DNA of 64,000 bases, taken from positions 1,488,001-1,552,000 of the forward strand of contig OZ017761.1 in NCBI GenBank assembly GCA_963969365.1. Reading direction: 5' to 3'. Positions 25,225 through 50,991 of the stretch are shown piece by piece. The stretch comes from Asterochloris sp. CNOR1. Its lineage: Eukaryota > Chlorophyta > Trebouxiophyceae > Trebouxiales > Trebouxiaceae. The notes under the pieces are model-generated. The model ran no database searches and was not told the origin of the DNA. It saw only the letters and a program-made list of their open reading frames with translations. Position 1 is the stretch's first letter. Every line of letters starts with the position of its first letter. Position numbers and translations under genes: made by a program.

Positions 25225-25230
25225 ACAGCC
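25225..25230. repeat. Left target-site duplication (ACAGCC)
   Basis: The six bases immediately outside the left inverted repeat, identical to 50986-50991 outside the right repeat. Confidence 0.85.
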
Positions 25231-25272
25231 ATATATTAGAATTATGCCGGTATAATGACACTGTCAGATTGG

Positions 25273-25460
25273 GTGTGTAAGCGGAGCACTTTGGAGACCA
25301 TATCTGACGGTTTCAAACAGCTCACCCACGTGTGTAAGCAGGCCACTTCTGGCAGTGGGCATGGACGGCTACCAAAGTTGTGTAGGCAGACGGCTTCTGT
25401 TGACTTCTGACAGCCTCCCCAACATTTTCAGAAGGTGTGTAGGCAGAGCACTTTGGACCC
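25273..25460. repeat. Subterminal repeats, four copies of TGTGTARGCRG
   Basis: Copies start near 25274, 25331, 25379 and 25437. The first and fourth extend to RGCRGAGCACTTTGGA. Mirror copies are present in the right repeat (about 50756-50942). Spaced subterminal repeats are typical transposase-binding arrays (family knowledge). Confidence 0.7.
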
Positions 25461-26339
25461 GCTTCCACCTGCTTCCAGGAAATGGCTGCACCTGTCATTA
25501 GGCCGTATGTTGTCATCATGGTGCCACGTCATTAGGCCGTGATTGCCTTCTCGGTGTATGTATGTAGGGTGGGCAGGTAGGTGGGGCTCGGAAAGGTGTG
25601 CGTAAGGCATGTATGTAGGCAGGTCGGAGAGGTGCACGTGCTCCCGCGGGGTGCATGTATGTAGGGGCAGGTGGGTGTCATTAGCAGACCACAGATGTTA
25701 CAGGGGTCTGTCAGCAGGTGCAGGAGTGTGCAGGGCCACCAAGTACTGCATACGCCGTATGACGTTCGCCGTATTACAGCCGTTCGTATTGTGTTGAGCC
25801 GTAGATAGTACGGTTAATACGGGGTTACGTAATGCAAACAACAGGCCTTTTTATGTGAGTAAAAAGAGCTTTGCTGTGGAAGCAGCAGGCTGTAGGCTCA
25901 AGGCCGAGACTCAGCAGGCTCCTCAACTGGCACAGGATCAACCCACTGCCACTCTGTGAACTCGGTGTCTGGCTTGTCAACTATGTTGTCGCACAGGCGC
26001 CTGCATGTGCATGGCTATCAAGGATCGAATGCACTTGATCCTTGGGTTTGTGCCTGGCCTGCCGTTGATCTGTGGTACGTTATCGATAAGGATGAATTGC
26101 CGTAACCTGCCATGCTGTTGGCAGGCTGCAGCAGCGTCTGAAGTGATTGACCGCAGGTTTGACTGCCCACAGCTGCGGGTTTTGGCTCATTTGGCCTGCT
26201 CCACGGTGGGACACCGTTTTTACCCGTATTCAGCCTGCGCAGCTGAAAATGGCGTTTTGGACGTATTGCCATTGAGAAGTTGCCGTATCTGGTGGCCCTG
26301 GGAGTGTGCGTGTATGTAGGCCTATGAGCGGCAGTCAAC

Positions 26340-26585
26340 TCATTCAGCCTCCTCCTCTTGGGACTGTGAGGGCCGCCCACCCACCATCCACAGGGCCATG
26401 TGCTTGTTGAGGCGCATCTGCTGGGCATGATACTTGGCAGTGAGGGTGAAGTAGCGTGCTATGCCACTGTCAAAGCTGTTGCGGGGTGTTGGGAAAGCCA
26501 GGTCTGTCTCACCAGTTGGCGGCATGTCATCGTCAAGCTCCATTTTGCGCTTCTTGCTGCTCTGGGACACCCCCTTAGCCTTCAT
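26340..26585 (-). CDS. TIR-encoded small basic/acidic protein, left copy
   Basis: Eighty-one codons from ATG at 26585, beginning MKAKGVSQSSKKRKMELDDD with a KKRK nuclear-localisation-like patch, and ending GGRPSQSQEEEAE then TGA. The middle reads FDSGIARYFTLTAKYHAQQM. The translation matches the right copy, which the element carries in opposite orientation. It could be the last exon of a longer protein: the frame is open upstream to 26603. No family is recognised. Transcription runs outward. Confidence 0.45.
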   Translation of the reverse strand: MKAKGVSQSSKKRKMELDDDMPPTGETDLAFPTPRNSFDSGIARYFTLTAKYHAQQMRLNKHMALWMVGGRPSQSQEEEAE

Positions 26586-26626
26586 AGCCCTGGGTTTCAG
26601 CAAACACGGTCATAAGGTGGAATTTG

Positions 26627-26868
26627 CAAAGACTGTGGCTACCACAGAGGCTAGAGAAGCATGTATGTACGTAGACATTGAGGGCCCTCTCGGAATGCTA
26701 TCCAACCAAAAACGCAAGGGGCTACGCTCTGGCAAGGACTGCAACAAGTGGCGCAAGGGCTACGTGATGTATGCAGACTTCGAGTCCACCCTGGAGCCTG
26801 AAAGGTGCCCAGCAACGTTGAAAGCCACCATGCTGCCTAAGTGCAAGCCTGCTGTGGCATTTACATAA
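26627..26868 (+). CDS. TIR-encoded inward ORF, left copy
   Basis: Open frame containing YVDIEGPLGMLSNQKRKGLR and KGYVMYADFESTLEPERC, ending AVAFT then TAA. YADFES-L-P resembles the exonuclease-I motif region of protein-primed family B polymerases and their relatives, but only this motif is seen, so no function is assigned. A one-base indel relative to the right copy changes the frame just upstream. Confidence 0.3.
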
Positions 26869-27507
26869 AGACTGCAGGGGTCATGCGGCATCTGACCTGC
26901 ATGACTGTGTCAGCGCTGTTTCAAGCATTGCGTCTGCGCCTCCTCCCCAATTGCTGCCATCGACAAGGCACCTGCACACTGCTCATGTAGAACACCTGCA
27001 GGAACACCTGCAAGTGACCAGCAGTGTGCGCCCAGCGCTTGAGGTGCAGCAAATCTCGTCATCATGTCAGGGCTGCTGTTCTTCTGTCTCCTGAAGTGCG
27101 GGCTTGGCTGTCCCTGAGCAAGGCAAACCTTGTGCATGCCAGTGCCACCGGCACGGTGCAGATGAGAGATACAGGACAACAGCGCCGGGCGCCAAGACAC
27201 AGGCCTTCAACTTTGTCCCCTTTCGTATGGCAGTAGCTGCTGCCATATGCATGAAAGAGGATCCAGTGCTGCGCATGATGAAGACCACTCCATCCAGGGT
27301 GGCTCTTGTGGAGCAGCTGGTGAGCACTCCTTCCTTTGGATCCCCTGCCATTGCGCCATGATGGCGTGGCTCTGCAGCACAGTCTGCACCCTGATCTTGC
27401 TCACCAGCAGCGCCTTCTGCCTGCACCCACCAGACGTCTCACAGAATGCAGTCAGGTGCTGTGCTGCAACTTTGACATCTCCTGTTGCATGCTGCATCCT
27501 ACCCCTT

Positions 27508-28189
27508 ATGACGCCTGTGATCTATGACGCCAACCTGGCAGTTATAGCCACAGCTGATGTGCTGTATAGTAAGCCAAGGTTGCTGAGGGAACAGCTGCTG
27601 AGCGGCACACATTGCTGCCTTGCCCAGGGGTCTGCTGTAGCAGCAGAGATGCTGCGCGGCCAAAGCAAGCCCGGCTTCCCCCCCCCCCCCCCCCCCTGCA
27701 ACCAGGCCAGCTATCCACCTGACTTTGGCGATTCCCTCATGGCACACCTGACTGGGTGCTGCTGCATGACAGTGTCCAAGACCTGCTCCTGGCCGTCTTC
27801 TGCATCCAGAGTTGTGGCCACCTCTGTGCGCTCAGGCAATGCATAGCACACACCATTGACAACATCTGTCCTGCCGTGCTGCAGCTGCAGCTGTGCGACT
27901 GCAGGCAATGGCAACCTGCTCAAGGCATGTTGCAGCAGTGTGGTGCGAGCTGTGGCCTAAACAACGCCGAGACGCAACTGCGAGGATTGGGTGTAGCGCA
28001 AGACTGGACGCTACAGTTGTAACTTACTCATAATAGACCAGCAAAGGGAGCTGCCTGCTGGTGTGGCCTGCGCGTCTCCTATCCCAAGAGTAAAATCCTG
28101 TGGTGTAGGGATTGCCATAAAAGTTCACGGAGTGCATATGATACAGCTGGTCAACTGGCACATCCTACACGACGTGCTTCTAGGGGACA
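27508..28189. other. Stretch between left TIR and Rep-like fragment
   Basis: Plus frame YDANLAVIATADVLYSKPRL (27523 on) and minus frame VVNGVCYALPERTEVATTLD (27870-27810) both look plausible, and neither is recognised. It contains an uninterrupted run of 19 C at 27678-27696. Confidence 0.35.
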
Positions 28190-29070
28190 CTACTGAAAAG
28201 GCAGCAAGCGCTTGGCCAATTTTTTTCCAAGGCCAGCTGGGGACATCCTGCTAGCATGATACATCATAGCGTCATGGTTGTCACTGGCAGCTGCGCCTTG
28301 AACACCACACCAGTGATACTCATCTGTAGCACCGGCCGATGGGCCAGTGTCAAGTGCTGTGCCGGCACTATCTGTAAGTTCCCGTGTCAGTGCTTTAAGT
28401 TCCTGCTCCTCTGAGTCTCTCAGTTTGGGCCGAGCCTTGGCAGCAAGACCTTCTGGTATGGTCAACACCAACGCTGTGGCAGCTGCTTTTGCCCTCATCA
28501 GCTCCCGGCAGGTGTCGCCATGGCGTTTGCACCTTGTCAAGTGGTCCTGGAAGGAGATGCCGGCTATTTCGTACAGCCTGCAACAGCACCACCATAAGCA
28601 TATCAGCACACAATTGAGTGGTCTCATGTAACTTTGATGACTTGAGGACTCTACACAAGCTTGCTCCTCACAGTGGACCCCCATCAAGACTTCAAGCTGC
28701 AGCAGACCGTATGAACCAAACAACCAAGAGCTCACTCGTATGAACTCTCCCGAAGAAACTCAACGGTAAGCTCGAATGTGCCTTGTCCAGAGAAGCGGGC
28801 AGTCCGCCTCAGTGCCCAGTACTTCTGCTCATAATTGGCCCCTTCACAGTAGACAGGGCCACCACGCTTGAATGGGTCAAAGCGGTAGCTCTCCAGCTCC
28901 TCATAGGGCGTTGGTGTGACGAGGATGCGTGCTGCAGACTGTGTTCTGTAGTCAATCACCTCAATCCAGTACCAGTTCCACATATTTTTCTGGCCAGTTT
29001 GCCTCCAGATTGTAACTTCCTCTCGCAGGCTTCTGTTGGGCCCTTGCAGAAACTTCATGGGGCGCTTCCG
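28190..29070 (-). pseudogene. C-terminal fragment of HUH/Rep-like protein
   Basis: Two minus-strand exons: 29070-28736 and 28577-28190, joined in phase. The first begins QRKRPMKFLQGP and LREEVTIWRQTGQ, matching the end of the Rep-like gene at 39210-39270 (QRKRSMKYLQGP, LREE), and continues WYWIEVIDYRTQSAARILV and FDPFKRGGPVYCEGANYEQK. The second reads LYEIAGISFQDHLTRCKRHG and DTCRELMRAKAAATALVL, ending LAKRLLPFQ then TAG. Homology to the N-terminal half ends at the boundary of module A, so the N-terminus with the HUH motif is missing here. Confidence 0.5.
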
Positions 29071-29093
29071 CTGGTCAGGAAGTTACAATCTGG
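29005..29093. repeat. 17-bp perfect inverted repeat at module A breakpoint
   Basis: Arms CCAGATTGTAACTTCCT (29005-29021) and AGGAAGTTACAATCTGG (29077-29093), spacer 55 bp. The left arm lies in the minus-strand Rep fragment (codons EVTIW). The right arm opens module A. This is what an inversion or fold-back event within the Rep gene would leave. Confidence 0.8.
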
Positions 29094-29265
29094 ACGTGGC
29101 AACCTTTCAATAGCCAAGCTGAGGCAGCACTATGAGGAGGCATTCATCAATCTGTTTGGGGCCTACCCACCTCCTAGATGGACGGCTAGTCGCGCGCCAG
29201 TAACGGCATGTGTCAGTTACAACCTGCCGGCAGCTGTTGTTGCTGATGTGATGAAGGCCAGATGA
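29084..29265 (+). CDS. Short conserved tail ORF, module A copy
   Basis: Reads GRGNLSIAKLRQHYEEAFIN then NLPAAVVADVMKAR and TGA. The module B copy differs by mostly conservative changes, which suggests protein-level constraint in this frame. It lacks a start and may be a displaced exon. No family recognised. Confidence 0.35.
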
Positions 29266-29730
29266 TGCACGTTGTATGACTTTGTAACTGATGCATAGAT
29301 TGCGCGAGTACAACCATTTTCAAGCCCCCAGGAGGTCCTCTTTTGCCTCCAGGGAATCAAGTGTAGCTGATGCTGGGCCCAAAAATCCACCACATTTGTT
29401 GGTCAGGCCAGCTCCCTCAGGTTGATACATTCAAGTGAAGTTCATGTGTGGTGGAACTTTGTTGTGCGATGGCTGGCCAGAAATATTTGATTGGGCCCAG
29501 AAAAAGGGTTACGCAGGAGTGCAGATCCTCGATATATGTAGACCAAGAGTGTTTCAAGTGTAGTCTGTCCCCCAGATGGCATGTGGTTTTGCGGGGTGAC
29601 ATCTCACTTCCTGAGTGACATATTACACCGATCAATGAAAATATAACCTTCAGCACAGAATCGTGACCTGTTCATTTAGATGGCGTCAGGAATCGTCAAC
29701 GCAAGTTTCATCAAACAATCAGAGGCATGC

Positions 29731-32711
29731 TCAGACACTCTGCTTACGCTTGCCAAGCAGCTTGGAATCACTGCTGTACCTGCTGCATAGCTGCTGCAGT
29801 GAGCCAATTGTCCTGGTGGCGGTGATGCGCTCACGTTCCATTTCTAATGCCCCAACCACAGCAGCCATGGTGCTTCCCAAGGCATCCATGCGGTTTCTGA
29901 CCTCAGCAGCAAGGCCATTCTTGAATCTCGAGAAGGCCGTGCTGCTGGCCCTTGCTACCTTCTTGCTGCCATGCCACCTGCGGAGGTCTAAAGGCACCGC
30001 TGAGATCTTGGAGAACGCCTAAAATCCTTCTTGGACTGTTTCAAATTCTGAGAGCTTCCAGACCTGCAGCTCACAGGGGGAAGTACAGTCAGACCAGTAC
30101 ACAGGCGCTCAAGCTGCAAGGCAATAAACCACACACCTGCTTCTCGAACAAAAAGGAGTCCCTCTCATCTGAGGCGCTCAGCGCACTGAGGGACTGAGGC
30201 GGCAGAGTAACGCCATAGCTGGCCTGTGGAGCCAGAGGCACCCATGGGATGGGTTTGGCTGATGCTGGGGCCTGGACACCAGAAAGAGGCACCTGAGGCA
30301 GCATCACCACCAGGGCCAGAGGCATGGCCTCCTTTCCACTCAGCGTCTTGAAGAAGGAAGCCTGCGACATGGAAGGGCAAAGGGCAATGCATGTTTGACT
30401 ACAACACCTAGGGGCTGCAGCGCTCACCGTTGGGTTGGTGAACAACAAATTCCTGTCGCTGAGAATCGCCTCAGCAGCAACGTGTTTGTCCCATGTCTCC
30501 TGCCGCAGCTGCTTGCCTACAGCGCTCTGCAGAAGGCGATTAGCGGCTGGCGGGATGGTGCGAAGCCACTGGTCCCCATATGAATCAATTTTTAAGCTGG
30601 CATTCTGCACAAACACTTGCCGCAGGTGGTCGATGGCCCTCAAGGGCGCCAGCAAAGGATGTGCAGGGTGGCATCGGCATGCCAGCTTGGCGCAGTAGCA
30701 CCGTCAAGCCTGAGATGATGCGGTCCAGCACATCCTCCTCAGCCTGCAGAAGACAATCAGATCAGTCCCCCCCTCCCCCAATTGTGGTGATGTGTGTGAG
30801 AAGCACTGGCACTGCAGTGACCTTACCATGAACTCAGCCTGACCCAAACGATGATTCTCGTGCCACTCCTGTCCCCACCCAGCCAGCCTGTGGGCTGTGT
30901 CTGGGTCAAAGATGCAGTACAGGTCTGTGGTGTCGGACTCATGCCTGCAAGGCAAAACACTGGTCAGCTGAGGACAATACTGTTCAGAATGCACAGCATG
31001 GCCTGAGTTGCCTACCTCGCCGCCATCTTGATCTCCGCTTTGTTGATGCCCACGCTCTTAGCCGCCTCCACACCATGCTTCTTAAATTTGTGGCTGACCT
31101 CCCCTTTAGCTGAGTACCCATCAAGCCTGCCACAGGGCACGCCTGCAGTGTAGCAAGCCACAGATGTCACCAATAGCCATGTCCGAAAGCTGCGGCATTA
31201 ACGCACTGGCTCACCAGCAAGTTCAGAAGCCTGCCGAAGGTGTACGTTGAGGGTCTCCCCACTCATGAGCTGATTCCCCTGCATGCTAGGGGCGGCAACA
31301 ATGAACTTGGCCAGATCCTCAAGTTTGATGCCCCTGTGGAAGGTGGCGACAGCCAGGTCGGCAAGCGCTGCCTGAGGACAGATGCGATGGTCCCGGTACC
31401 TGTGGCAGAAGAGACATGATAACTCAGAACACACTGCAGCACACTGCCCAACTGCGCCTGACAGCAGGGATGCGCATACCTGACGACACCAGGAATATCC
31501 ACTTTCCCAGGCTTCACAGTCTTTCCCTGCATGCTACCAAAGAGGATTGCCACAGAGGGCACTGGGCCCACATTATCCTGCGTCCTCAGTGCCAGGCAGC
31601 TCCAGGGAAGTTTGCGCAGGTCATCAGAGCGGCCCAGTGTGGCTGGCATGAACGTCATTGCCATCCTCAGCAGATGGTCCACTGCCATTGCTTCTGCTGG
31701 AAAGCTGCTTGCAGGGACTGGCGAAGCTGCTCTGCACTCAGTGCGGCACCCACCTGCAGATGCAAGCAACCAGCTGGGGTCAGACACGCCATCATTCTGT
31801 TTGCACAACATGCTCTGACCAGGCCGATACCCACCTGAGCGGCAACTTGAGCAGTGAGGTTCTCAGCCTGCATCTCCTTGCCATGTGCACGGACCAAGTC
31901 CCTGACCGCCTGGATTTCCAGGGGTGCAAGAACATCTGAGGTGATGCGGCCCTCTGAGTACTACTCTCTGCGGACTTCCTTGAGGTGGCATAGATACTCA
32001 CTGCATGCACCAGGCCAAAGTTGGGGAGGGCAGGACAAGAGCGCAGCTCAAACACAGCAGTGGAGTGGCCTCTTACCCAATACTGCTGAACGAGTAGCGA
32101 GCACCATTCTGTTGCACTGCCTCATCCACAAGCCACATCGAGATCTCAAAAATCTTGGCCTGAGACATGAGGTCGCCATCGGGGAACCGGTGCGCCTCTT
32201 GCTCACAGTATCTCTGCAGAACCACATGTGTGTGAGTGACATGGCCTTGGAAGCCTCAAGGGGGCCATAAGAACAGGAGTAAAGCCCATGCAGCGCCTAC
32301 CCTCCAGAGCTTGGCAGCTGATTTTTCAGCCTGGACCGTGTTCTGTGGCTTAGCCGCACCATGACGGGCATTGATGAGCTGGGTGAGCTGTAGGATACGA
32401 GCTTCCTCCTCAGGAGCGTTAGGCATTGCTGCTGCCAAGCCAACTGCTGCGTCTGAGACTGGTGCTCCATTCTGCTGGCCCAAAGTCTCTAAATTGTGCA
32501 CACCAGGGGCAGAGGCCGGCACTGGCTGGAGATCATCCACCACTCCAGACAGGTGTCTGCAGGCTTGATCAATTGCCGCTCCGAGGGAAGGGGGGCTGTT
32601 TGGGGAGCAGCTGGCATGCAGTTGTGCTGTGTAGTCGTCAGCTAGCCCCAGGCTGATGACATGGTTGATGTAGCTGCTGTACTCAGCAGATGGCACCTGG
32701 TAGTGCTGCAT
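29731..32711 (-). pseudogene. Crypton-like tyrosine recombinase, module A copy, two in-frame TAGs
   Basis: Homologous exon by exon to the intact module B gene. Start ATG at 32711 (MQHYQVPSAEYSSYINHV). The conserved core is present: GRSDDLRKLPWSCLALR, RDHRICPQAALADLAVATFH, VSHKFKKHGVEAAKSVG, HESDTTDLYCIFDPDTAHRL. Two nonsense codons: exon 3 has TAG (31966-31964) where module B has CAG, between VRRE and YSEG; and the last exon has TAG (30022-30020) where module B has GAG, after ETVQEGF. Splice sites look intact. The first stop precedes the whole catalytic domain, so no active full-length product is expected without readthrough. Confidence 0.75.
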
Positions 32712-33288
32712 GAGGATCGATCTGGTTTGGCGCGCTAGGCTTATTTGACCTAGCAATTAGGTCGGGAGGCGAACCTGGCAGCTGGTGACAGGAAGCCTTC
32801 CAGCAGGAGAGTCGCTGTGAAAGCAATCCAGTACCTCATTCACAACGCCCACTGACACTTAGGTGCCCAGGTTTTGTGCCTCAACACAGGAGGCAGCTGA
32901 GCTGACATTCAGGTCCAGATGGTCTTGTTTATCTCTGAAGCTGAAAACTGGCTTCTGCTGGTCCCTGAATGTTGTTGCCAATGACGTTGCAGGCACACTG
33001 CGCAAAATTTTAGGTGAAGCAGACTTGTTTGGCAAAGCAGGCCTGTGTCAGGGTGAGGCTGAGCTGGGGTGCCCACCACTGGCTTGCTTGGCTTGTGCCG
33101 GTCGTCTGGCAGTTTGCTCGGTGATCCACATTTGCTGCGGCTTGACATTCGTCTGTATAGGGTAGCTGGAAGCTGCTGACTGTGCTCTTCAGCTGGACTG
33201 CTCCAAAAGTTGCCAGTCACATTGGGACCATGTGCAGCAGCAGTCAGCTGTCAAGCATCCTTTGTTGGTCTGTTGCAGGGCATCTGGG
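32712..33288. other. Spacer between divergent recombinase and cargo genes, module A
   Basis: The recombinase and kinase-like genes diverge here, so it should hold both promoters. Sequence from 32765 no longer matches module B. No TATA or other motif is convincing. Confidence 0.35.
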
Positions 33289-36200: not shown

Positions 36201-36828
36201 GCTGGCCGACCTGATGATTGTGCACCGAGACATCTCGCCAAACAATATTGGCTACCAGGCTGACGGGCACGGCTGCCTCTTTGATTTTGGTGCTGCAAAG
36301 GTGGGCTCACTCAGGACGGACTGCTGGCATTGTGTAATCAGTCTCTGACCCCTCATGTGCGCTGATCTGCAGACAGGTGAAGCAAGCACATATAACCTGA
36401 CTGACTTGCAGGTGATGGACAGCTCAGGTTCTCAAAGTCCTGGCCAGATCCTCACAGGCACGCCCATATACATGGCCATTGATGTGTTGATGGGCCAAAG
36501 CAGCACTCCCAGCACCGACTTGGAGTCCCTATTCTACTCCATCCTGGCTGTTTGTGTTGGTGGACGCCACAGCGATCGTGGTGCTGGATTCGCCAATGCC
36601 CCGAAGGTGGCAGCAAAACTGCGCCGTGGGGGAATGCTTGCACCTGAGCTAGAAGAGTTGCAGTACGCCCCACAGGACAAGCATGCCTTTCTGGAGACCT
36701 TGCACAATGTGTTTTTCCCCTTTACAACACCTAAAAAGGGCAAAGCCCCATCTCGTTTCCACTGCAATGATGTCTCGCCTGAGGATGTGAAGGAAGCTTG
36801 CAAGCAGTTCATGAGCCCAAGTGTGTAA
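33289..36828 (+). CDS. Cargo A: nuclease-like segment plus FunK1-like protein kinase
   Basis: Exon 33289-33475 begins MAALEDIFRGLSGNLQKIRE. Further exons at about 34514-34629 (LLEQLGQLKFEVNDLKITIN) and 34749-34891 lead to a large exon at about 35042-35776 with PDKKIDCSG, VVPIEFKLEEKDADAALGQL and ESASIVQRQQPERKFIYAVS. The D..E-x-K..Q spacing and the FunK1-type 'piEfK..Ql..Q..RkF' pattern are visible. The kinase catalytic exon (36010-36300) has LMIVHRDISPNNIGY (HRD loop) and LFDFGAAK (DFG). The last exon (about 36373-36828) has LTGTPIYMAIDVLM and STDLESLFYSILAVC, the FunK1 'DLES.FY' signature, and ends in TAA. FunK1 kinases are mainly fungal; REase plus kinase is a known Crinkler/CR-effector architecture. 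The join around 35777-36009 and the 33640-33770 segment (stop after GHAGHIRA) are unsettled. Confidence 0.65.
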
Positions 36829-37735: not shown

Positions 37736-37764
37736 GGTGAGCAGAGGATGTGACCTGTTATATG

Positions 37765-39286: not shown

Positions 39287-39343
39287 GAGGCGCACCCTCC
39301 TGACTTTCATCGATTCAGGCTGCTTGAGCCTGTCAGGAAGTTA

Positions 39344-39523: not shown

Positions 39524-39913
39524 TACAAGCTTGTTTATAAGATCATGAAAGCATTTTTGATACACCATGCCACAGCACAGGTGTGGGAAGCGCACCCACG
39601 TACCCACACCTGATGACTTTGTAACAGATGCACAGATTGCGCAAGTGCAGCCCTTTTCAAGCCCCCAGCAGGTCCTCTTTCGCCACCAGGGATTCAAGTG
39701 TAGCCAATGCCAGGTCCATAAAGCCACCACATGTGTGACATGTTTGAGTCAGGCCGGCTCCCTCAGGTTGATATTTTCAAGTGGAGTTCAAGTGTTGTGG
39801 AACTTTGTTGTGCAGTGGCAAGCCAGAAAATGTTTGATTGGCCCAGAGAAAAGGGTTACGCGGGAATGCAGATCATCGATTCATGTAGACCAAGAGTGTT
39901 TCAAGTGTAGTCT

Positions 39914-39945
39914 GTCAGGGGGCAAGCCTTTGAGGCTTGCCCTCC
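39914..39945. repeat. Short hairpin unique to module B
   Basis: GGCAAGCC-TTTGA-GGCTTGCC, with flanking G/C extension, forms an 8-11 bp stem with a 5-base loop. Module A lacks it at the matching position (about 29570), so it is an insertion or deletion between modules. Confidence 0.55.
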
Positions 39946-40098
39946 TGCATGAAATGTGATTTTGTGAAGTGAAATGCCACTTTACGAGTAAAATGCTACA
40001 CCACTCAGTAAAATATGACTTTCAACAGAGAGATGTGACCTGTGCAGGTAGATGGCGGTAGGTTGTGAATGCAGGTCAGCAAGCAATCAAAGGGTTGC

Positions 40099-43088
40099 TC
40101 AGCCGCTCTGCTTACGCTTGCCAAGGAGCTTGGAATCATTGCTGTACCTGCTGCATAGCTGCTGCAGTGAGCTGGCTGTCCTGGTGGCAGGGAGGCGCTG
40201 ACGTTCCATTTCTAAAGCCCCGACAACAGCAGCCATGGTGCTTCCCAAGGCAGCCATGCGGTTCCTGACCACAGCAGCAAGGCCATTCTTGAATCTCGAG
40301 AAGGCCGTGCTGCTGGCCCTTGCATCCTTCTTGCTGCCATGCCACCTGCGGAGGTCTGAGGGCACCGCTGAGATCTTGGAGAACGCCTCAAATGCTTCTG
40401 GGACTGTTTGAAATTCTGAGAGCTTCCAGACCTGCAGCTGAAAAGGGAGAAGTATAGTCTGACCAGTATACAGGCGCTCAAGCTGGAAGGCGATTGACTA
40501 CACACCTGCTTCTCGAACAAAAAGGAGTCCCTCTCATCCAAGGCGCTCAGCGCACTGAGGGACTGAGGCGGCAGAGTAACGCCATAGCTGGCCTGTGAAG
40601 CCAGAGGCACCCATGGGATGGGTTTGGCTGATGCTGGGGGCTGAGCACCGGAAAGAGGCACCTGAGGCAGCATCACCATCGGGGCAAGAGGCATAGGCAT
40701 GGCCTCCTTTCCACTCAGCGTCTTGAAGAAGAAAGCCTGCAACATGGAAGGGCAAAGGTCCAGAGCAATGCATGTTTGACTACACCACCTAGGCAGCACT
40801 CACTGTTGGGTTGGTGAACAACAAATTTCTGTCGCTGAGAACCGCCTCAGCAGCAACGTGTTTGTCCCATGTCTCCTGCCGCAGCTGCTTGCCTACAGCG
40901 CTCTGCAGAAGGCGGCTGGCGGCTGGCGGGATGCTTCGGAGCCACTGGTCCCCATACGAATCAATTCTCAAGCTGGCATTCTGCACAAACACTTGTCGAA
41001 GGTGGTCGATGGCCCTCAAGGGCGCCAGCAAAGGATGTGCAGGGTGGCATCGCATGCCAGCTTGGCGCAGGAGCACTGTCAAGCCTGGGATGATGCGGTC
41101 CAGCACGTCCTCCTCAGCCTACAGAACACATTTGGATCAGTCACCCCCTCCCCAGAATTTGGTGATTCTTGTGAGAAGCACTGGCACTACAGTTACCGTA
41201 CCTTGTAATCAGCCTGGCCCAAACGATGATTCTCATGCCAGTCCCGTCCCCAACCAGCCAGCCTGTGGGCTGTGTCCGGGTCAAAGATGCAATACAGGTC
41301 TGTGGTGTCGGACTCATGCCTGCACAGGCAAAACAATGGTCAGCCAGCTGGAGACAATACTGTTCAGAATGCACAGCATGGCCTGAGTTGCCCACCTTGC
41401 CGCCATCTTGATCTCCGCTTTGTTGATGCCCACGCTCTTAGCTGCCTCCACACCATGCTTCTTGAACTTGTGGCTGACTTCGCCTTTGGCGGAGTAACCA
41501 TCAAGCCTGCCACAGGGCACGCCTGCAGTGTAGCAAGCCACCATTTTCATCGACAGCCGTGTCCAAAAGCTGCAGCATTGACGCACTGGCTCACCAGCAA
41601 GTTCAAAAGCCTGCCGAAGGTGAACGTTGAGAGTCTCCCCACTCATGGGCTGGTTCCCCTGCATGCTAGGGGCGGCAACAATGAACTTGGCCAGATCCTC
41701 AAGTTTGATGCCCCTGTGGAAGGTGGCGACAGCCAGGTCGGCAAGCGCTGCCTGAGGACAGATGCGATGGTCTCTGTACCTGTGGCAGAGGAGGCATACA
41801 AGTGAAAACACACGGCAGCACACAGCTCAACTACGTCTGACAGCTTGAACGCGCATACCTGACGACACCAGGAATATCCACCTGCCCAGGCTTCACAGTC
41901 TTCCCCTGCATGCTACCAAACAAGATTGCCACAGAGGGCACTGGGCCCACATTATCCTGTGTTCTCAGTGCCAGGCAGCTCCAGGGAAGCTTGCGCAGGT
42001 CATCAGAGCGACCCAGTGTGGCTGGCATGAATGTCATTGCCATCCTCAGCAGATACGCCCACTGCCACTGCTTCTGCTGGAAAGCTGCTTGCAGGGACTG
42101 GCGAAGCTGCCCTGCGCTCAGTGCGGCATCCACCTGGAGATGCAAGGAACAAGCTGGGGTCAGACACACCATCATTCTGTTTGCACAAGACGCTCTGACC
42201 AGGCCGGTACCCACCTGAGCTGCCACTTGCGCATTGAGGTTCTCAGCCTGCATCTCCCTGCCACGTGCACGGAGCAAGTCCCTGACTGCTTGAATCTCCA
42301 GGGGTGCAGGTACATCTGAGGTGATGCGGCCCTCTGAGTACTGCTCTCTGCGGACTTCCTTGAGGTGGCATAGATAATCACTGCATGCACCAGGCCAAGG
42401 GTTGGGAAGGGACGTGAGCGCAGCTCAGACACAGCAGTGGAGGGGCCTCTCACCCCACGCTGCTGAATGAGTAGCGAGCACCATTCTGCTGCACTGCCAC
42501 ATCCACAAGCCACACCGAGAACTCAAGAATCTTGGCCTGAGACATGAGGTCGCCATCAGGGTAACGGTGCGCCTCCTGCTCACAGTATCTCTGCAGGACC
42601 ACATGTGTGTGAGTGACATGGCCTTGGAAGCCTCAAGGAAGCCATAAGAACAGGAGAAAAGGCCATGCAGTGCCTACCCTCCAGAGCTTGGCAGCTGATT
42701 TTTCAGCCTGGACTGTGTTCTGTGGCTTAGCCGCACCATGACGGGCATTGATGAGCTGGGTGAGCTGTAGGATACGAGCTTCCTCCTCAGGAGTGTTAGG
42801 CATGGCTGCTGCCAAGCCAACTGCTGCGTCTGAGACTGGTGCTCCATCCTGCTGGCCCAAAGTCTCTAAACTGTGCACACCAGGAGCAGAGGCCGGCACT
42901 GGCTGGAGATCATCCACAACTCCAGACAAGTGTCTGCAGGCTTGATCAATGGCCGCTCTGAGGGCAGGGGGGCTGTTTGGGGAGCAGCTGCCATGTAGTT
43001 GTGCTATGTAGTCCCCAGCCAGCCCCAGACTGATGACATGGTTGATGTAGCTGCTGTACTCAGCAGATGGCACCTGATAGTGCTGCAT
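40099..43088 (-). CDS. Crypton/Ndc10-like tyrosine recombinase, intact copy
   Basis: Ten exons (43088-42678, 42590-42454, 42380-42215, 42133-41859, 41779-41595, 41522-41396, 41319-41202, 41118-40804, 40736-40506, 40431-40099) join to 2298 nt, 765 codons plus TGA, with all GT..AG borders. Catalytic pattern: first Arg in TLGRSDDLRKLPWSCLAL; VRYRDHRICPQAALADLAVA resembles the 'R..CP..AlA.lfa.FH' segment of fungal Crypton/Ndc10-domain recombinases; SHKFKKHGVEAAKSVG corresponds to the H-x-x-R box with Lys for Arg; and ARHESDTTDLYC matches the 'GH.S..TT..Y' nucleophile box, with Tyr 8 residues after His. The C-terminus (SDLRRWHGSKKDARASSTAF, SRYSNDSKLLGKRKQSG) is basic. Likely catalyses DNA cutting and joining for this element or for a nested ancestor. 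Start chosen at the first ATG in frame; an upstream exon is possible. Confidence 0.75.
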
Positions 43089-43347
43089 GAAGGGGTGGGT
43101 CGATCTGGTTTGGCGCGCTAGGGTTATTTGACCTAGCAATTAGGTCGGAAGGCAAGGTAATTTCGAAGTTTTGGGAGGTCAGCCTTTCGCTGGTCAGCAT
43201 CTCAATCATGGCTGGACATGGGTCCCCGTTCCAGGTAAAGATCCTCAGCATGCTTCCTTGGTTGTACTGGCAGCTTGGGATGCTTGCCAGAGACCTCTGC
43301 CAGTGCTTTCAGCCTTTGCTTTAGCTTCTTGGCATCCAGGACGTTGC

Positions 43348-45775
43348 ATGCAGGATGAGCTGGCTCTGGTCAGGGAGGACCTGCACACCCTGCGCCAGCA
43401 GCGTCGCGGAGAGGCCGCAAAGCCGCAGCAGAATGACAAACTGTTCAAAACACTGGACGAAGACATTCACGAACTGGCTGCTAAGGAAAAGCTGCTCATG
43501 GAGATGCATGCCAAGTGGCTCGAGGCACACCCTCCAGGTGAGCAGTCGTTCCGGTCAGCCTGTCTCACAACAAACAGAGCCGCGCAAGCTGGATGTGCTG
43601 GAGCAGTCTGATCAGTGGCTTGCCAAAGGGCTGGCGGAGGCCCTAGCGCTTGGGCTTGCAAGACACATCAGGTTTAGCTCTGTCCACCCCACCAGGGCTG
43701 CACCATCGGGCTGCAGGGTAAGCAGTCTTTTTAGTCAGCATTTTTTGCAGTGATTGAAAAGCGTGAGTGATGATGCCTTGACGCAAAGTGTGGATGCCTT
43801 GGAGCTTGAGCGCCCAGGAAATGCAAACCTCATGAGCTCTTCTCAGTGCGCCGCAAGTGCAAAGACTCAAGAATGCTGAGCTGCTTGTCATGGTAGAGGC
43901 CACCATGGCGATCATGTGCTGTGCCTTGTTGTGATGTGTGGGACACCAGGGTCATGGCCAGGCCCAACATCCAGAGTCATCCAGCTGAGCTTGCTTTAAA
44001 CGGGATTGTATGTTTGCAGGTGCACTCAGCGCAACATTGCTCTCCCGTGCAGCGATAGCAGGTCCTAGCTCTCTTGGAGGTGAATGCCAATGTTTTCTGG
44101 CGTGGCATGGTTGAGTACTTTCCTCTGACATCAGGTCCTTCCTGCAGACGGCTTTGGAGAGTTTGTGAAAGCTCTGTCATCCGAGCTGCTGGGTCCGCTC
44201 ATGACCTGTTTGCGAGCTGCAATGAAGGATGAGTTGAACCTTCAGGCCTCATCATGCAACAGCACCAACATGTTTGAGGCTCTGAAGCGCCTCGGCTTGA
44301 CAGCTTGCCGCAACCTGGCAGTGCCTTGCTGCCTGGCGCCAGACAAATCATTGATGCCAACCGCACTCCGCAAGTTCAAGTGAGACCCCTTTGTGCAGAG
44401 GACGCCTCTCCATCCCCTTCGTCACGCTCTTGTTGTGTATTGACAGGTACGACGACAATCCTTCTGGTTTGCAGGTGGGTGGGGTCTGAGACAAATCCAG
44501 TAGATGTCAAAGCAGGTGTCCAGTGGCTGAAGGACCACATTGCCCTTGATGGGCAAGATGTTCTGGCCATCACCAATCAATCATTTCTGAGAGCTAGCTT
44601 CCTGGACGCCAATATGGTCATCAACGGTAGCAAGACAGACTTTGTGGTAATCTCAGCTCAGGTGGGTGGATGCCTGCATTGGTCCCACATCTGCACATCA
44701 TTAATATGTCCAAGGTAGGCACTGGGTGGCTTGCTCATCATTAAGGCTACGCACCTCATATCTTGCAATGCAGGCAGTAGAGAGGCTGCATTTGAGGCCA
44801 GGCCAGCAGCCAAATGAAGTTCAGCTGCTCAGGTTGCTGAGGTACATAGCAGGATTCTATGAGTCAAAGACCACCAAGCGCTTGGAAGGTGAGTAGCTGG
44901 GCTGACTCCAGAGGCATGGACTCTAATGATCTGGGAGGACCCGCATGCCACTGCATCATATGTTCAGTTGCAGTGCAAAATGCAGCAGCCACTCCAGCTC
45001 AGCTCTTGGAACTCTGCTGCAGAGCGGGGTGGCGTAGGCTGCATGTGGACGCAGGTGGCTGCTCAAGCCATAGCCATTCAGCAGATGCGCCTTGTTGACT
45101 GCAAGGACATCGAGAACAGCAAGGTGCCTGTTTTTGGAGGGGACTTCAATGACCACATGATTCTCCACCACTCTGACCAGGAGCTGCACCTGATGTACCA
45201 CAAGCCCAACGATGCTGAACGGCGTGTGGCTGTGGCTTGCATGCGGCACTTGCTGACAGAGACGGCAGCTAAGATGCCATCAGGTAAGGAGTGGTCTGCC
45301 AAACTGCTGATCTGAATGCGAAGCATGCAGTGGCGCCGTTCTTTAAAAGCATCACAGACTTCTCAGGTCCTGATAATTTCTCGCAGGCGATGGCCTGGCG
45401 GCAGGGGAGGAGAGCGGCCAGGATGATGAGCTGTTGCCAGATGCTCCTGGTGGCAGCTCGGAGGATGGGGGCCCCTCAGGGGAAGCTCATGGGGATCCTG
45501 GTACCTCCAGAGAAGCTGCTGGAGATGCTGGTGGTACTCAGGCCAAGCCCTTTACCCGATCAGCTGCAGCCAAGCGCACAAGGCAGCGCCTGAATGCCAT
45601 GCTGGGACCTCAGGTGGATGCCGAGTACAGTACAGCATTGAACAGGCTGTTGCGCAACCCAGAGGGACATAAATCATTGGGCATGTCCTGCCCACCTCAC
45701 AGCATTGAACACACGCCATTTAGTGAGCAGGTTAGATCTTGGACCATTGCTGCCAACAGCCAGGACCTGAGTTGA
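43348..45775 (+). CDS. Cargo B: Crinkler-type protein with nuclease-like segment
   Basis: Begins MQDELALVREDLHTLRQQRR then KLFKTLDEDIHELAAKEKLL, a coiled coil, to a GTGAGC donor at 43538. The segment LAKGLAEALALGLARHIR (about 43620) is shared with cargo A. Exons at about 44150-44381 (FVKALSSELLGPLMTCLRAA) and from about 44475 read KWVGSETNPVDVKAGVQWL and NMVINGSKTDFVVISAQ. A following exon reads YIAGFYESKTTKRLE, and a later one QVAAQAIAIQQMRLVDCKDI then FGGDFNDHMIL. D...E-x-K...Q spacing resembles the PD-(D/E)XK modules of CR effectors. The C-terminus is acidic, then KPFTRSAAAKRTRQRLNAML, ending SQDLS then TGA. No kinase motifs seen. Exon borders are partly inferred. Confidence 0.5.
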
Positions 45776-46288
45776 TGGCCCATCACTGATGTACATGTCA
45801 TGCTGTCTCAGCCTGGCACATCCTGTCTGGGCCTCGTGCAGGACGCCTTGCCCTTCTTTGAACTCATGTGCTCAATCATACAGTACGCCTCTGTGAACCA
45901 TCGATGAAGCACAGGCACCTTTGAGAAGATGGGTGCTGGGGTTGACGCAGTGTAGACATGCATGAAGGCATCCACCAGATCATCTTGGCTATATGGCTGA
46001 CAGATAAAAGCAAGCACCTTGCAGTACAGCTTGAACTCTATTAGGCCCATGGGTCACACAAGCCAAGCTGTTCAGAGGAGGTCAACAGCGAGGTTTGCTG
46101 TTATCAATTTTCAGCAGGCCAATCACCCGGGCCCATGTCCACAAGCACATCCTGCATGAGGACGCCTCCCTTCAAGCAGACACTGAGGTGAAAAGGCAGT
46201 GCTGGTAGCGTGTGAAGCTGCTGGCTGTTCTGAGATTCCTCACTGTATTGCAGATTCAGTGTGCTGCCGATGCTCTGTGTCCTTTTTT
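45776..46288. other. Stretch after cargo B
   Basis: The minus strand has an 80-codon frame (46050-45808, IEFKLYCKVLAFICQPYSQD) that is not recognised. No other feature seen. Confidence 0.3.
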
Positions 46289-46530
46289 TGCAAGCTGCAT
46301 CCAGCACATCGGTTACCACTCATGAGCTTTTCCCGCTGGAGCAGCAGATTGAGGTTGTGGAGGGCAAGATCAGCATGGTGGAAATGGATTTCTATGAGCT
46401 GCGCAGCACCAGCCAGAATGGCTGGCAGAATAAGTCTGGTGACCTGCATGGACAGGAGAAGCAGCTCCGCATTGGAGAGGAGCAGGTGTGCATGGAGAAG
46501 CTGGTCCTGCTGCATAAGCTAGGGAAATAA
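46289..46530 (+). CDS. Short coiled-coil ORF or terminal exon
   Basis: Frame reads HELFPLEQQIEVVEGKISMV and KQLRIGEEQVCMEKLVLLHK, then LGK and TAA. Charged heptads suggest a coiled coil. It may be the last exon of a cargo gene or a remnant. It sits after an AG acceptor-like site with no start codon of its own. Confidence 0.35.
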
Positions 46531-46624
46531 CAGCTGTCAATGTGGAGGCTCACTGAAGGTAATCCGTGGCTAATGAAGGCCTGTAACTAAGCAACTAGGT
46601 GGACCACCGAGCTGGCATCAACCT

Positions 46625-46725
46625 CTCAGGGTCGACTTGTCACAGGGTGTCACATGGCCTGTAAATATGATGCCCTGTTGCGGGGTGTCACATGGCCTGT
46701 GATAATATGACCTAAAGTCACCAGC
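46625..46725. repeat. Repeated GGGGTGTCACATGGCCTGT motif
   Basis: GGGTGTCACATGGCCTGTRA occurs twice, near 46637 and 46683. The second is followed by TATGACCTAAAG, as near 37195. Single relatives are near 29591 and 37166. Position between genes suggests an element-specific regulatory or UTR sequence (inference). Confidence 0.5.
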
Positions 46726-46800
46726 GACCTTATAGCTGCAGGTCAATGGACTGCTGAGCGGCTTTTGTCTTGAGGTTTTGAGCTCTTCAGGTGCTAAAGC

Positions 46801-47670
46801 ATGCGCTGGGACATCGAGCAAGCCGGGCTGCAGCTGCTGAGCTGCATGCATGTGGACCACTGCAAGGCGGAGCTCTGGTCCGGCAGGCTGCAGGAGGGTG
46901 GCAAGGTCTATGAGGTCCGGCCCAAGGAGTTGATGTCAGGCCCACTTGCCCGCCGACCTGACTGCATCCCTCTGCCTGCAGGTGGCAGTTAAGTGGTTGC
47001 CAGACATTGGCAGTGGCCCAGATGTCATGCAGCGCTTCCTGCAGGAGATCAACCTGCTGTGCCATGCCACGCTGCGATGCCAGCGGGTGTGCAAGGTGCA
47101 TGGGACCTGCATCAAGGAGGAGCGCATCTGCATCGTCATGCAGCTCTATAAGGGCTCCGTTGCACAGCTAATGGCCCAGCAGCAGGGTGAGCTGTGCTCG
47201 CTCCTTGCAGGCAGGTGCCTGCTCAGCCTCAGTACGTCTTGACCCATGGACTGTGGCACACGTGCAGGAGTCCCTCTGCCGCTGGAGGTGGCGCTGCGAT
47301 GGGGCATAGACGCGGCCACCGCTCTGGCAGAATTACACCGGGAGGGCGTCCTCGTGCTGGACGTCAAGTAGGCTGCTCTTTTAAGGTTCTGGCAACCTGG
47401 CCTGCTCTGTGGGATGCAGATATATGCTGTCACCTGCCCCAGCGATGCATGCAACAGCATATAGGCCCCACCATCTCTGGTGGACTCCAGGCCATTGTCT
47501 GCCCTGCAGGCCTGCCAATCTGCTGCTTGACGAGCTGGGGAATATGGTGCTGGCTGATTCGGGCATCTTGCGCATGGTGGATACGATCTCTCAAGTGTGG
47601 CCTGTGCAAAGCTGGGCACTTTTGGCAGGGGGTACAGATCTGAGACATTTTGATGCGGAAGTACCCTGAT
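46801..47670 (+). CDS. Protein-kinase-like gene, probable pseudokinase
   Basis: Exons 46801-46914 (MRWDIEQAGLQLLSCMHVDH), 46982-47186 (VAVKWLPDIGSGPDVMQRFL, CIVMQLYKGSVAQLM), 47268-47367 (LRWGIDAATALAELHREGVL then VLDVK) and from 47510 (PANLLLDELGNMVLADSGIL) join in phase. The N-lobe Lys (VAVKWL) and a catalytic-loop-like LDVKPANLLLDE with Lys and Asn are present. HRD is replaced by VLD and DFG by ADSG, so the catalytic base Asp is kept but the HRD His-Arg and DFG Asp-Phe-Gly contexts are altered. The 3' end is unresolved. Unlike cargo A, it resembles a plain Ser/Thr or RIP-type kinase. Confidence 0.6.
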
Positions 47671-48691
47671 GCTATCCTTGCAGATCTGGCTCAAAGCCTG
47701 CACATGCATGTTGTTGACCTGTTGTGCACTCATACAGGTCTGGCCAGACTGGGCGGATGCACAGCCCTGCGAAGGCGCAGACCTGCACATTCATGTGCCT
47801 GTCCAGTTTTGTCCAAAGCCTGCAGGAGCCTAGATCTGTGCCGGTGCAGTTAATGGCCACTGGCACAGCATGATACAAATCTGTGGAGCCCCGGAGGTTG
47901 CCCAGAACTGTGCAGATACCCCAAAGTCTCAGTTCTGTGCATTCCAGCATTATTGGTCAAAAGCAGGAACTTTCACACAGTTGTTGCTAAATGTAGATCA
48001 TGTAACCAGTTGAAGAAGGTATCACAGGCTGCAGATGCAGCTTGACTCGCACAGCTAAAGCTGCTGCACTCAAAATTTAAATAAAATGTAGCTGCTGTTC
48101 CCCAGACACTCCTTGGGCTCTCCACCACTGGGCCTGCTGTTGGCAAGACGAACTGCTGAATGCCGTCATATGAGTGGGGTAGCTTTTACTGTGAGCTGGC
48201 TAAGCAGTGGCCAAGCTCTCACTGCACTGATGTAAATCTAAAGGCCTGCAGCAGGCCACAGACAAGTCAGGGCACTGCCAGCAAGGCCTGGAGCCAACAA
48301 TTTGTGTTTCGCCCAGAGGGCACATGCTGCCACAGCAAGGTGCCCACATTCACAAGCTCAACAAGACTGTCACAATATATGCAATAAGCAGTCAACACAC
48401 CTCAGCACCTGCTGCAAACCCTGATATTAACAGCAAAGCTGAGCAGCTGCAGGCACAAGCAGTTGATTGTGACGTGGTGGGAGTGCCTGCCGCACCTTCG
48501 GCTCAGACAGAGTCTGTGATGTGAGTATGTCAGCTCTGCTGCTCTGTCTTGCAAAGCAGGATTTTGTACTCTTGCTTCCAGACCTGCAGCTGATCAGACT
48601 GGTGCGATATGTGTCGCACTGACCCTGAGGTACCTTCGCACCTGCAACCAGAAGGCATGCAGGTGATTCGGTGAAGTATGGGACCATGCAC
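47671..48691. other. Stretch between pseudokinase and right TIR
   Basis: Short ORFs only. One plus frame (48324-48524) reads NPDINSKAEQLQAQAVDCDV and is not recognised. The kinase's 3' exons may lie here. Confidence 0.3.
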
Positions 48692-49332
48692 AAGGGGTAG
48701 GCTGCAGCATGCAACAGGAGACGTCAAAGTTGCAGCACAGTACCTGACTGCATTCTGTGAGACACATCTGGTGGGTGCAGGCAGAAGGCGCTGCTGGTGA
48801 GCAAGATCAGGGTGCAGACTGTGCTGCAGAGCCACGCCATCATGGCGCAATGGCAGGGGATCCAAAGGAAGGAGTGCTCACCAGCTGCTCCACAAAAGCC
48901 ACCCTGGATGGAGTGGTCTTCATCATGCGCAGCACTGGATCCTCTTTCATGCATATGGCAGCAGCTACTGCCATACGAAAGGGGACAAAGTTGAAGGCCT
49001 GTGTCTTGGCGCCCGGCGCTGTTGTCCTGTATCTCTCATCTGCACCGTGCCGGTGGCACTGGCATGCACAAGGTTTGCCTTGCTCAGGGACAGCCAAGCC
49101 CGCACTTCAGGAGACAGAAGAACAGCAGCCCTGACATGATGACGAGATTTGCTGCACCTCAAGCGCTGGGCGCACACTGCTGGTCACTTGCAGGTGTTCC
49201 TGCAGGTGTTCTACATGAGCAGTGTGCAGGTGCCTTGTCGATGGCAGCAATTGGGGAGGAGGCGCAGACGCAATGCTTGAAACAGCGCTGACACAGTCAT
49301 GCAGGTCAGATGCCGCATGACCCCTGCAGTCT

Positions 49333-49566
49333 TTATGTAAATGCCACAGCAGGCTTGCACTTAGGCAGCATGGTGGCTTTCAACGTTGCTGGGCACCTTT
49401 CAGGCTCCAGGGTGGACTCGAAGTCTGCATACATCACGTAGCCCTTGCGCCACTTGTTGCAGTCCTTGCCAGAGCGTAGCCCCTTGCGTTTTTGGTTGGA
49501 TAGCATCCCGAGAGGGCCCTCAATGTCTACGTACATACATGCTTCTCTAGCCTCCGTGGTAGCCAC
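49333..49566 (-). CDS. TIR-encoded inward ORF, right copy
   Basis: Right counterpart of the frame at 26627-26868, with the same KGYVMYADFESTLEP segment and stop. Upstream the frame differs: here the other reading is ICKDCGYHGG, a possible CxxC knuckle. Confidence 0.3.
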   Translation of the reverse strand: MATTEAREACMYVDIEGPLGMLSNQKRKGLRSGKDCNKWRKGYVMYADFESTLEPERCPATLKATMLPKCKPAVAFT

Positions 49567-49616
49567 AGTCTTTGCAAATGTCCACCTTATGACCGTGTTT
49601 GCTGAAACCCAGGGCT

Positions 49617-49862
49617 ATGAAGGCTAAGGGGGTGTCCCAGAGCAGCAAGAAGCGCAAAATGGAGCTTGACGATGACATGCCGCCAACTGGTGAGACAGAC
49701 CTGGCTTTCCCAACACCCCGCAACAGCTTTGACAGTGGCATAGCACGCTACTTCACCCTCACTGCCAAGTATCATGCCCAGCAGATGCGCCTCAACAAGC
49801 ACATGGCCCTGTGGATGGTGGGTGGGCGGCCCTCACAGTCCCAAGAGGAGGAGGCTGAATGA
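49617..49862 (+). CDS. TIR-encoded small protein, right copy
   Basis: ATG at 49617; identical in translation to the left copy at 26585-26340 (KKRK patch, acidic end QSQEEEAE). Both copies point outward from the element. Two identical copies are expected from recent duplication or gene conversion of the TIRs. Confidence 0.45.
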   Translation: MKAKGVSQSSKKRKMELDDDMPPTGETDLAFPTPRNSFDSGIARYFTLTAKYHAQQMRLNKHMALWMVGGRPSQSQEEEAE

Positions 49863-50985
49863 GTTGACTGCCGCTCATAGGCCTACATACACGCACACTC
49901 CCAGGGCCACCAGATACGGCAACTTCTCAATGGCAATACGTCCAAAACGCCATTTTCAGCTGCGCAGGCTGAATACGGGTAAAAACGGTGTCCCACCGTG
50001 GAGCAGGCCAAATGAGCCAAAACCCGCAGCTGTGGGCAGTCAAACCTGCGGTCAATCACTTCAGACGCTGCTGCAGCCTGCCAACAGCATGGCAGGTTAC
50101 GGCAATTCATCCTTATCGATAACGTACCACAGATCAACGGCAGGCCAGGCACAAACCCAAGGATCAAGTGCATTCGATCCTTGATAGCCATGCACATGCA
50201 GGCGCCTGTGCGACAACATAGTTGACAACCCAGACACCGAGTTCACAGAGTGGCAGTGGGTTGATCCTGTGCCAGTTGAGGAGCCTGCTGAGTCTCGGCC
50301 TTGAGCCTACAGCCTGCTGCTTCCACAGCAAAGCTCTTTTTACTCACATAAAAAGGCCTGTTGTTTGCATTACGTAACCCCGTATTAACCGTACTATCTA
50401 CGGCTCAACACAATACGAACGGCTGTAATACGGCGAACGTCATACGGCGAACGTCATACGGCGTATGCAGTACTTGGTGGCCCTGCACACTCCTGCACCT
50501 GCTGACAGACCCCTGTAACATCTGTGGTCTGCTAATGACACCCACCTGCCCCTACATACATGCACCCCGCGGGAGCACGTGCACCTCTCCGACCTGCCTA
50601 CATACATGCATTACGCACACCTTTCCGAGCCCCACCTACCTGCCCACCCTACATACATACACCGAGAAGGCAATCACGGCCTAATGACGTGGCACCATGA
50701 TGACAACATACGGCCTAATGACAGGTGCAGCCATTTCCTGGAAGCAGGTGGAAGCGGGTCCAAAGTGCTCTGCCTACACACCTTCTGAAAATGTTGGGGA
50801 GGCTGTCAGAAGTCAACAGAAGCCGTCTGCCTACACAACTTTGGTAGCCGTCCATGCCCACTGCCAGAAGTGGCCTGCTTACACACGTGGGTGAGCTGTT
50901 TGACACCGTCAGATATGGTCTCCAAAGTGCTCCGCTTACACACCCAATCTGACAGTGTCATTATACCGGCATAATTCTAATATAT

Positions 50986-50991
50986 ACAGCC
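50986..50991. repeat. Right target-site duplication (ACAGCC)
   Basis: Matches 25225-25230 exactly. Removing the element and one copy restores a continuous host sequence. Confidence 0.85.

Follow-up and report, generated by a model that had tools for sequence, protein, structure and literature searches.

The window, a 64,000-nucleotide stretch of contig OZ017761.1 from the green alga Asterochloris sp. CNOR1 (C16:1488001-1552000 in the notation used below, where C denotes a contig), contains a unit of 25,755 bp which a first-pass annotation had described as a single giant transposon with a novel gene set. We conclude that this unit is probably a composite. Two Crypton-like elements, A and B, of a kind that would integrate as circles and that carry effector-like cargo which can be swapped, together with a gene for a relaxase-like protein, are nested in an outer element with a Polinton signature. 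The nested elements have termini of their own with direct repeats, occur in tandem, turn over their cargo and keep an HUH-like open reading frame (ORF) under purifying selection. Their other core gene is tyrosine-recombinase-like (YR). Coordinates are collected in Table 1.

The outer element extends from 25231 to 50985 with ACAGCC abutting each side. Alignment and flanks confirm the 6-bp duplication and the long terminal inverted repeats (TIRs) reported initially. Both ends start with ATATATTAGAATT. Aligned end to end, the two repeats of the window copy are 98.8% identical, with 11 mismatches and 17 gap positions, 14 of which fit a single 14-bp step between repeat blocks. A 14-bp tandem unit, present in 2.6 copies at 50428-50463 in the right repeat, equals this step in length. 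The genome (56.4 Mb, 21 contigs) was searched with a terminal pattern of 35 places allowing up to three mismatches. It matched at eight places, i.e., both ends of four elements and none other; the same pattern read backwards, used as control, matched at none. The first-pass annotation had proposed a search of the host genome with the terminal sequence, and three further elements sharing these ends were found, designated C1a, C1b and C14, each with a duplication of its own. The flanking 6-mers are exact in three of four elements (window ACAGCC, C1b AGCATG, C14 GGTCAT); that of C1a, AAAGCA, has a 1-bp offset. Four elements with differing duplications count against an assembly error at the window copy. 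Long inverted repeats of 1.65-3.09 kb were aligned in all four, and they are 94.3-99.9% identical within an element as against 78.6-91.0% between elements. Being more alike within than between elements, the repeats must be converted or copied together; as far as sequence comparison goes, the repeats of one element evolve in concert, which agrees with the ongoing conversion suggested at first. Relics of the outer repeat lacking ends, short partial matches, are located at C8:2753780-2754075 and C12:2158837-2158937.

A different picture emerges for the genes inside. The HUH-like ORF yields 137 match rows genome-wide and one YR exon 159, and HUH/YR units lie at dozens of loci with their own termini and unrelated flanks. 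The core of B is 99.2% identical over 5.9 kb to copies on C4 and C9, again with unrelated flanks, and in free copies the alignment to the window begins at about 37194. C1a possesses the outer ends and the duplication, no HUH/YR DNA, and the same right flank after GACCTAAAG, thus representing a one-sided empty site. The single giant transposon does not survive these comparisons. The recombinase-like genes, the HUH-like gene and the kinase are indeed present, yet what was described as "two recombinase modules" and an HUH-like gene of one element is two copies, A and B, of a separate family. Copies sharing the internal region but having different ends had been named beforehand as evidence contrary to a single transposon, and such copies exist. 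The perceived conflict that Cryptons lack TIRs while HUH elements make no such duplications disappears once outer and nested elements are separated.

A and B are arranged head to tail and meet at a single GACCTAAAG. A simple tandem duplication as the source of the 10.4-kb direct-repeat spacing was rejected in favor of two tandem elements. Further tandem joins are present at C9:1465120-1465281 and C5:327025-327177. A script count found an exact GACCTA in 19 of 24 right ends and in 13 of 19 left ends; one right and three left ends, unmatched by the search expression, were scored as misses. The right-end miss, C14c, is a search miss, as its sequence shows GACCTA. Within 29000-47000 four of the five plus-strand GACCTA are module boundaries. 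The 21-bp arms beside the terminal GACCTA are inverted repeats of each other (18/21). Outside GACCTA, the flanks of eight elements match over 0 bp in five, 1 bp in two and 3 bp in one, i.e., a target duplication of at least 4 bp is found in none of the eight; in a control with mismatched pairs, 3 of 56 matched over at least 3 bp. A second GACCTA lies inside a palindrome, GACCTA-N5-TAGGTC, at the boundary of core and cargo (43130 and 32747), and the core similarity stops just past the palindrome of B.

The orientation of the two genes was counted for the best 46 HUH rows against 150 of the 159 YR rows: a convergent YR row is positioned up to 10 kb downstream in 40, an opposite-strand row upstream in 5, and a same-strand row on either side in none. 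The pairing of ends used 52 YR rows, some of them chosen for proximity to HUH loci (convergent in 39 of 46), and 40 of 53 right-end rows, overlapping neighbours being dropped; 17 of 42 left-end matches pair with the core-side end, 12 with the right end and 9 with both. Nine copies paired end to end, including B and the C1b insert, measure 7.9-11.1 kb. A HUH/YR unit ending at 43155, where similarity stops in ten free copies (earlier at locus L029), was considered and rejected: co-occurrence with the kinase and the conserved right terminus show that the unit continues through variable cargo. At C7 a window-like kinase lies 4.4 kb beyond the end of the core, and at C8 the distance from the inferred core end is about 4 kb. 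A conserved terminus like TTGCGGGGTGTCACATGGCCTGTGATAATATGACCTA recurs at 46634-46714 and 37150-37199, and other copies have it on their downstream side. At the right-end loci L061-L081 a degenerate repeat of about 37 bp is present once to three or more times, possibly as recombinase binding sites. At L051 (C5:3193040-3193460) and L052 (C5:3203528-3203950) a pair of left ends is arranged head to head, separated by a spacer of about 30 bp that is similar to the right-end repeat; one locus looks like an inverted copy of the other.

The cargo was compared in 12 elements (66 pairs) on the same strand over the first 1.2-2 kb, for C5, C14 and C11 over 1.24-1.35 kb only. Whereas the cores are 88.2-99.6% identical over the 66 pairs, the cargo is without any alignment in 41, and 24 align over 33-681 bp at 68-88%. 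Despite its near-identical core, B shares no alignable cargo sequence with C4 or C9, and these two, with cores 99.6% identical, share 322 bp at 76%. Cargo ORFs inspected by eye display ExK-type nuclease motifs as well as small modules at the N-terminus; a Pfam scan of these ORFs recognised only the kinase, with no nuclease or Crinkler match. Pairs of a REase and a kinase are described for the C-termini of CR/Crinkler effectors (PMC5289972). The cargo is best read as effector-like and exchangeable between elements.

On its left side, at about 29.0 kb, A contains an inverted scrap of the HUH gene. C1b carries a single A-like element of 9.1 kb and no B. The cargoes of A and of the C1b insert align over 828 of 2000 bp at 92%, and the last exon of the A kinase gene is also present in C1b (97%) and at C7 (95%), there beside another HUH/YR copy. 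The right junction of the nested DNA with the outer element is identical in C1b and the window. The C14 outer copy contains broken HUH/YR pieces, some inverted; HUH/YR-derived DNA is present in three of the four outer elements. Because the duplications of the window copy and C1b differ, the outer element and A probably moved together as a unit, although separate insertions of related elements into the same GACCTAAAG site could have produced the same arrangement. In the C14 copy a 319-codon open frame (L012:4751-5707, minus strand) has an HNH-like cysteine pattern by eye and nothing significant in Pfam.

We infer the HUH and YR identities from motifs and sub-threshold profile matches. Among 16 HUH proteins, 60-92% identical to the first, the HVH motif is kept: H93 is invariant and H95 nearly so (Tyr in one row), and two Tyr are invariant. 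The ratio dN/dS is 0.31-0.48 in 18 of 21 pairs, those with dS above 0.09. Sub-threshold matches to profiles which we take to be HUH families occurred for MobL (4/16) and Rep_OBD (2/16), and for MobP2 and MobP3 in one each of five proteins. No helicase match was obtained in the 386-aa HUH ORF or its relatives. Of 72 HUH relatives all 11 with a source name are coded Astpho2, which we read as Asterochloris. A hand-joined YR exon query had 22 protein matches, again all Astpho2 gene models, the best over the whole query length. R280/R285, H378, K381, R403/H404 and Y412 (P0073 numbering) are kept in most gap-free rows, and these conserved R, K, H, H and Y positions are candidate catalytic residues. 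NDC10_II was sub-threshold in 4 of 17 recombinase proteins; Phage_integrase and DUF3504 did not match, and GCR1_C, suspected for the YR C-terminus, had no Pfam support. A scan of viral contigs with the HUH alignment gave nothing useful. In P0072, an Asterochloris gene model, a portion of the HUH protein is linked with ankyrin-type Pfam domains, which may reflect either a fusion or an error of the model.

Without its inserts the outer element is about 8 kb in size. The kinase fragment has a counterpart in C1b which also matches PF07714. As to the repeat ORF, 13 of its 14 genome matches are within the four outer elements and the 14th has an E of 0.19; an early hint of constraint (0.14 versus C1a) was not upheld, since C1a versus C1b gives a pN/pS of 0.69, and viral-contig scans with this ORF gave nothing useful. 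Elements with an rve integrase such as Polintons have 6-bp duplications and kilobase repeats (PMC12220804). By its sequence the outer element, which we leave unassigned, is a TIR element that bears a Polinton-type signature and is apparently non-autonomous. An integrase of the DDE/retroviral type, not found inside the element, probably mobilised it in trans.

As the composite reading has it, A would have inserted at GACCTAAAG inside the outer element, and B would then have integrated at the right-end GACCTA of A. The recombinase may excise a circle by recombination between two GACCTA copies, and the circle may insert at another GACCTA. The HUH protein might nick and replicate the circle by a rolling-circle mode and raise the copy number. 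Cargo could be exchanged as a cassette between the GACCTA of the palindromic boundary and the terminal one. Both the tandem accretion and the inverted arms are compatible with site-specific recombination. Since modelling failed to confirm the recombinase fold, we file the nested family as a Crypton-like variant, not as a proven Crypton.

Several observations weigh against the composite and the identities assigned in it. No circle was seen, A is decayed, several GACCTA ends are degenerate, and the left flank of C1a at the insertion site is unlike that of C1b, leaving the empty site one-sided. The window HUH frame stops early, about 79 codons short of the 386-codon frame of the C4 copy, and in the three closest pairs dN/dS is 0.55-0.73. 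Neither the HUH nor the YR protein had a match of the expected kind at curated cut-offs, a PHROGs match or a convincing sequence relative in the PDB. Unrelated profiles scored as well or better, i.e., DUF4630, sub-threshold in 3 of 16 HUH proteins, and Bin2_C (E 0.0008) in one and REase_MTES_1575 in two YR proteins. AlphaFold models were poor for the HUH protein (mean 51.7, the HUH half below 50) and failed for the YR protein (mean 34.0); no hit of a fold search reached an E of 0.001. For the outer element no transposase was recognised.

How do other explanations fare? One integral giant transposon using HUH and recombinase genes as its own machinery is hardly credible. Near-identical repeats and a duplication do bound the whole unit, HUH/YR-derived DNA lies in three outer elements, and A may have travelled along; but C1a has ends and duplication without such DNA, the dozens of other loci bear units with ends of their own, and 10-kb stretches of the C4 and C9 copies do not match the outer repeats. 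The main rival concerns the nested family, which might be Replitron-like, the HUH protein transposing and the YR-like gene being an acquired accessory or resolvase. We consider this unlikely. As described in PMC10741241, Replitrons are elements of 0.9-4 kb with target-site duplications of 2-8 bp and direct terminal repeats of 5-11 bp. An HUH-like ORF under purifying selection, a green-alga host and 6-bp direct terminal repeats within that range agree with such an element. The nested family is set apart, by description only, by about twice the length or more, by its YR-like gene and by the lack of a clear duplication outside GACCTA in the eight elements, and a GACCTA common to ends and target is the trace that site-specific recombination leaves. 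The same outcome, one copy in the empty site and two after insertion, would result if a target-specific DDE-type enzyme, so far unrecognised, duplicated GACCTA. With a recombinase-like gene conserved in the element, inverted arms flanking the core and three cases of an element joined in tandem to the end of a second one (window, C9 and C5), we regard such an enzyme as improbable.

For the outer element, origin by decay from a Polinton or Polinton-like virus, with long repeats that spread into former coding sequence, is a possibility, if a rather doubtful one. The repeat ORF contains a YADFEST motif which resembles the ExoI motif of protein-primed PolB. The 6-bp duplications and the concerted evolution of repeats 1.7-3.1 kb in length likewise fit Polintons/Mavericks and Polinton-like viruses (PMC12220804). 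Unlike in Polintons, PolB, rve integrase, ATPase and capsid had no Pfam match among the scanned ORFs, which are a part of all ORFs; a genome search with PF03175 was blank, its controls being equally silent, and the pN/pS of the repeat ORF speaks for no clear constraint.

Among known systems, Cryptons are close to what we propose for the nested family: they have constant short direct terminal repeats (4-6 bp) and no other target duplication (PMC3212892). Cryptons integrate a circular intermediate by recombination; in the nested family such a circle is suggested indirectly at most, by the tandem copies and the one-sided empty site. Common to both are a recombinase-like gene, 6-bp terminal direct repeats as presumed substrate, the absence of another duplication and, sub-threshold, NDC10_II. 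The nested family adds an HUH-like protein, hypervariable cargo of about 2-4.5 kb, a length of 7.9-11.1 kb and inverted 21-bp arms, and it has no GCR1_C match. MarCry-1_FO, mentioned in the same text (PMC3212892), is a Crypton housed by an element that has both inverted repeats and duplications; here, by contrast, we find two tandem copies, an element with long repeats and 6-bp instead of TA duplications, and no fused transposase was found. Starships, the giant YR elements of fungi, are also described as YR elements with varied cargo; the nested family is much smaller and has an HUH-like gene. From the CR/Crinkler effectors (PMC5289972) the cargo differs in having no Pfam Crinkler match, whereas the kinase of A and ExK-like motifs seen by eye in other cargo ORFs are alike. 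Helitrons differ in that the nested-family HUH protein has no fused superfamily 1 helicase. Bacterial integrative conjugative and mobilizable elements are similar in outline, combining a YR integrase, a relaxase-like HUH protein, cargo and tandem accretion at an attachment site; the nested family is eukaryotic, no conjugation genes were seen, and its circle is only presumed.

Among the matches listed from the open-licence literature we found no description of a eukaryotic element with HUH and YR genes or of Cryptons in Asterochloris. Tentatively, the nested family could represent an undescribed eukaryotic class of integrative elements, a counterpart of the bacterial integrative mobilizable elements, with a YR and an HUH relaxase-like protein, integration at GACCTA, tandem accretion and swaps of effector-type cassettes between GACCTA sites next to a near-identical core. 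If this pairing is real, one eukaryotic DNA transposon unites the enzyme types which bacterial integrative elements use for integration and single-strand processing, and its cargo is replaced beside a 6-kb core that remains 99% identical. It would then be a natural system for the acquisition and exchange of effector-like nuclease and kinase genes and for gain in the genome of a lichen alga. Further, stacked insertions can mimic one giant element of a new class.

Table 1. Features of the composite unit (window positions) and further copies of the outer element (contig positions).
Feature	Position	Strand	Basis or remark
Left target-duplication copy ACAGCC	25225..25230	.	sequence comparison
Left TIR, outer element, 2280 bp	25231..27510	+	alignment
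Outer-repeat ORF containing YVMYADFESTLEP	26455..26865	+	decayed; no Pfam match
Left internal part, outer element	27511..29010	.	96% identity with copy C1b
Nested element A	29017..37199	+	left end lost or rearranged; remnant of the recombinase gene; cargo with kinase; right end at 37199
Tyrosine-recombinase-like gene of A	29734..32756	-	~90% identical to that of B; exons disrupted
Palindrome GACCTA-N5-TAGGTC, core/cargo boundary of A	32747..32763	.	sequence
FunK1-type kinase gene, cargo of A	34746..36825	+	Pkinase_fungal PF17667, one exon above cut-off
Nested element B, 9.5 kb	37194..46714	+	GACCTA at both ends, tandem with A; end comparison
Left end of B, GACCTA and 21-bp arm	37194..37226	+	arm inverted versus right end, 18/21 match
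HUH-like ORF of B, 307 codons	38363..39283	+	sequence
Tyrosine-recombinase-like gene of B, multi-exon	40102..43139	-	exon matches; convergent to HUH-like gene
Palindrome GACCTA-GCAAT-TAGGTC	43130..43146	.	upstream of likely start codon of recombinase-like gene
Cargo of B	43156..46633	+	absent from C1b
Right end of B	46634..46714	+	two degenerate ~37-bp repeats, then GACCTA
Right internal part, outer element	46715..48688	.	common to C1a and C1b
Protein-kinase fragment, outer element	46934..47239	+	PF07714 above cut-off
Right TIR, outer element, 2297 bp	48689..50985	-	alignment
Right target-duplication copy ACAGCC	50986..50991	.	sequence comparison
Outer-element copy C1b	C1:741521-758377		terminal-pattern search
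Outer-element copy C14	C14:755269-772224		terminal-pattern search
Outer-element copy C1a, 6.06 kb	C1:24154-30213		terminal-pattern search

A search of Rfam at gathering thresholds returned nothing. Outside the composite unit the window has two-copy tandem repeats with 87-bp spacing at 12299-12485 and 54800-54962.

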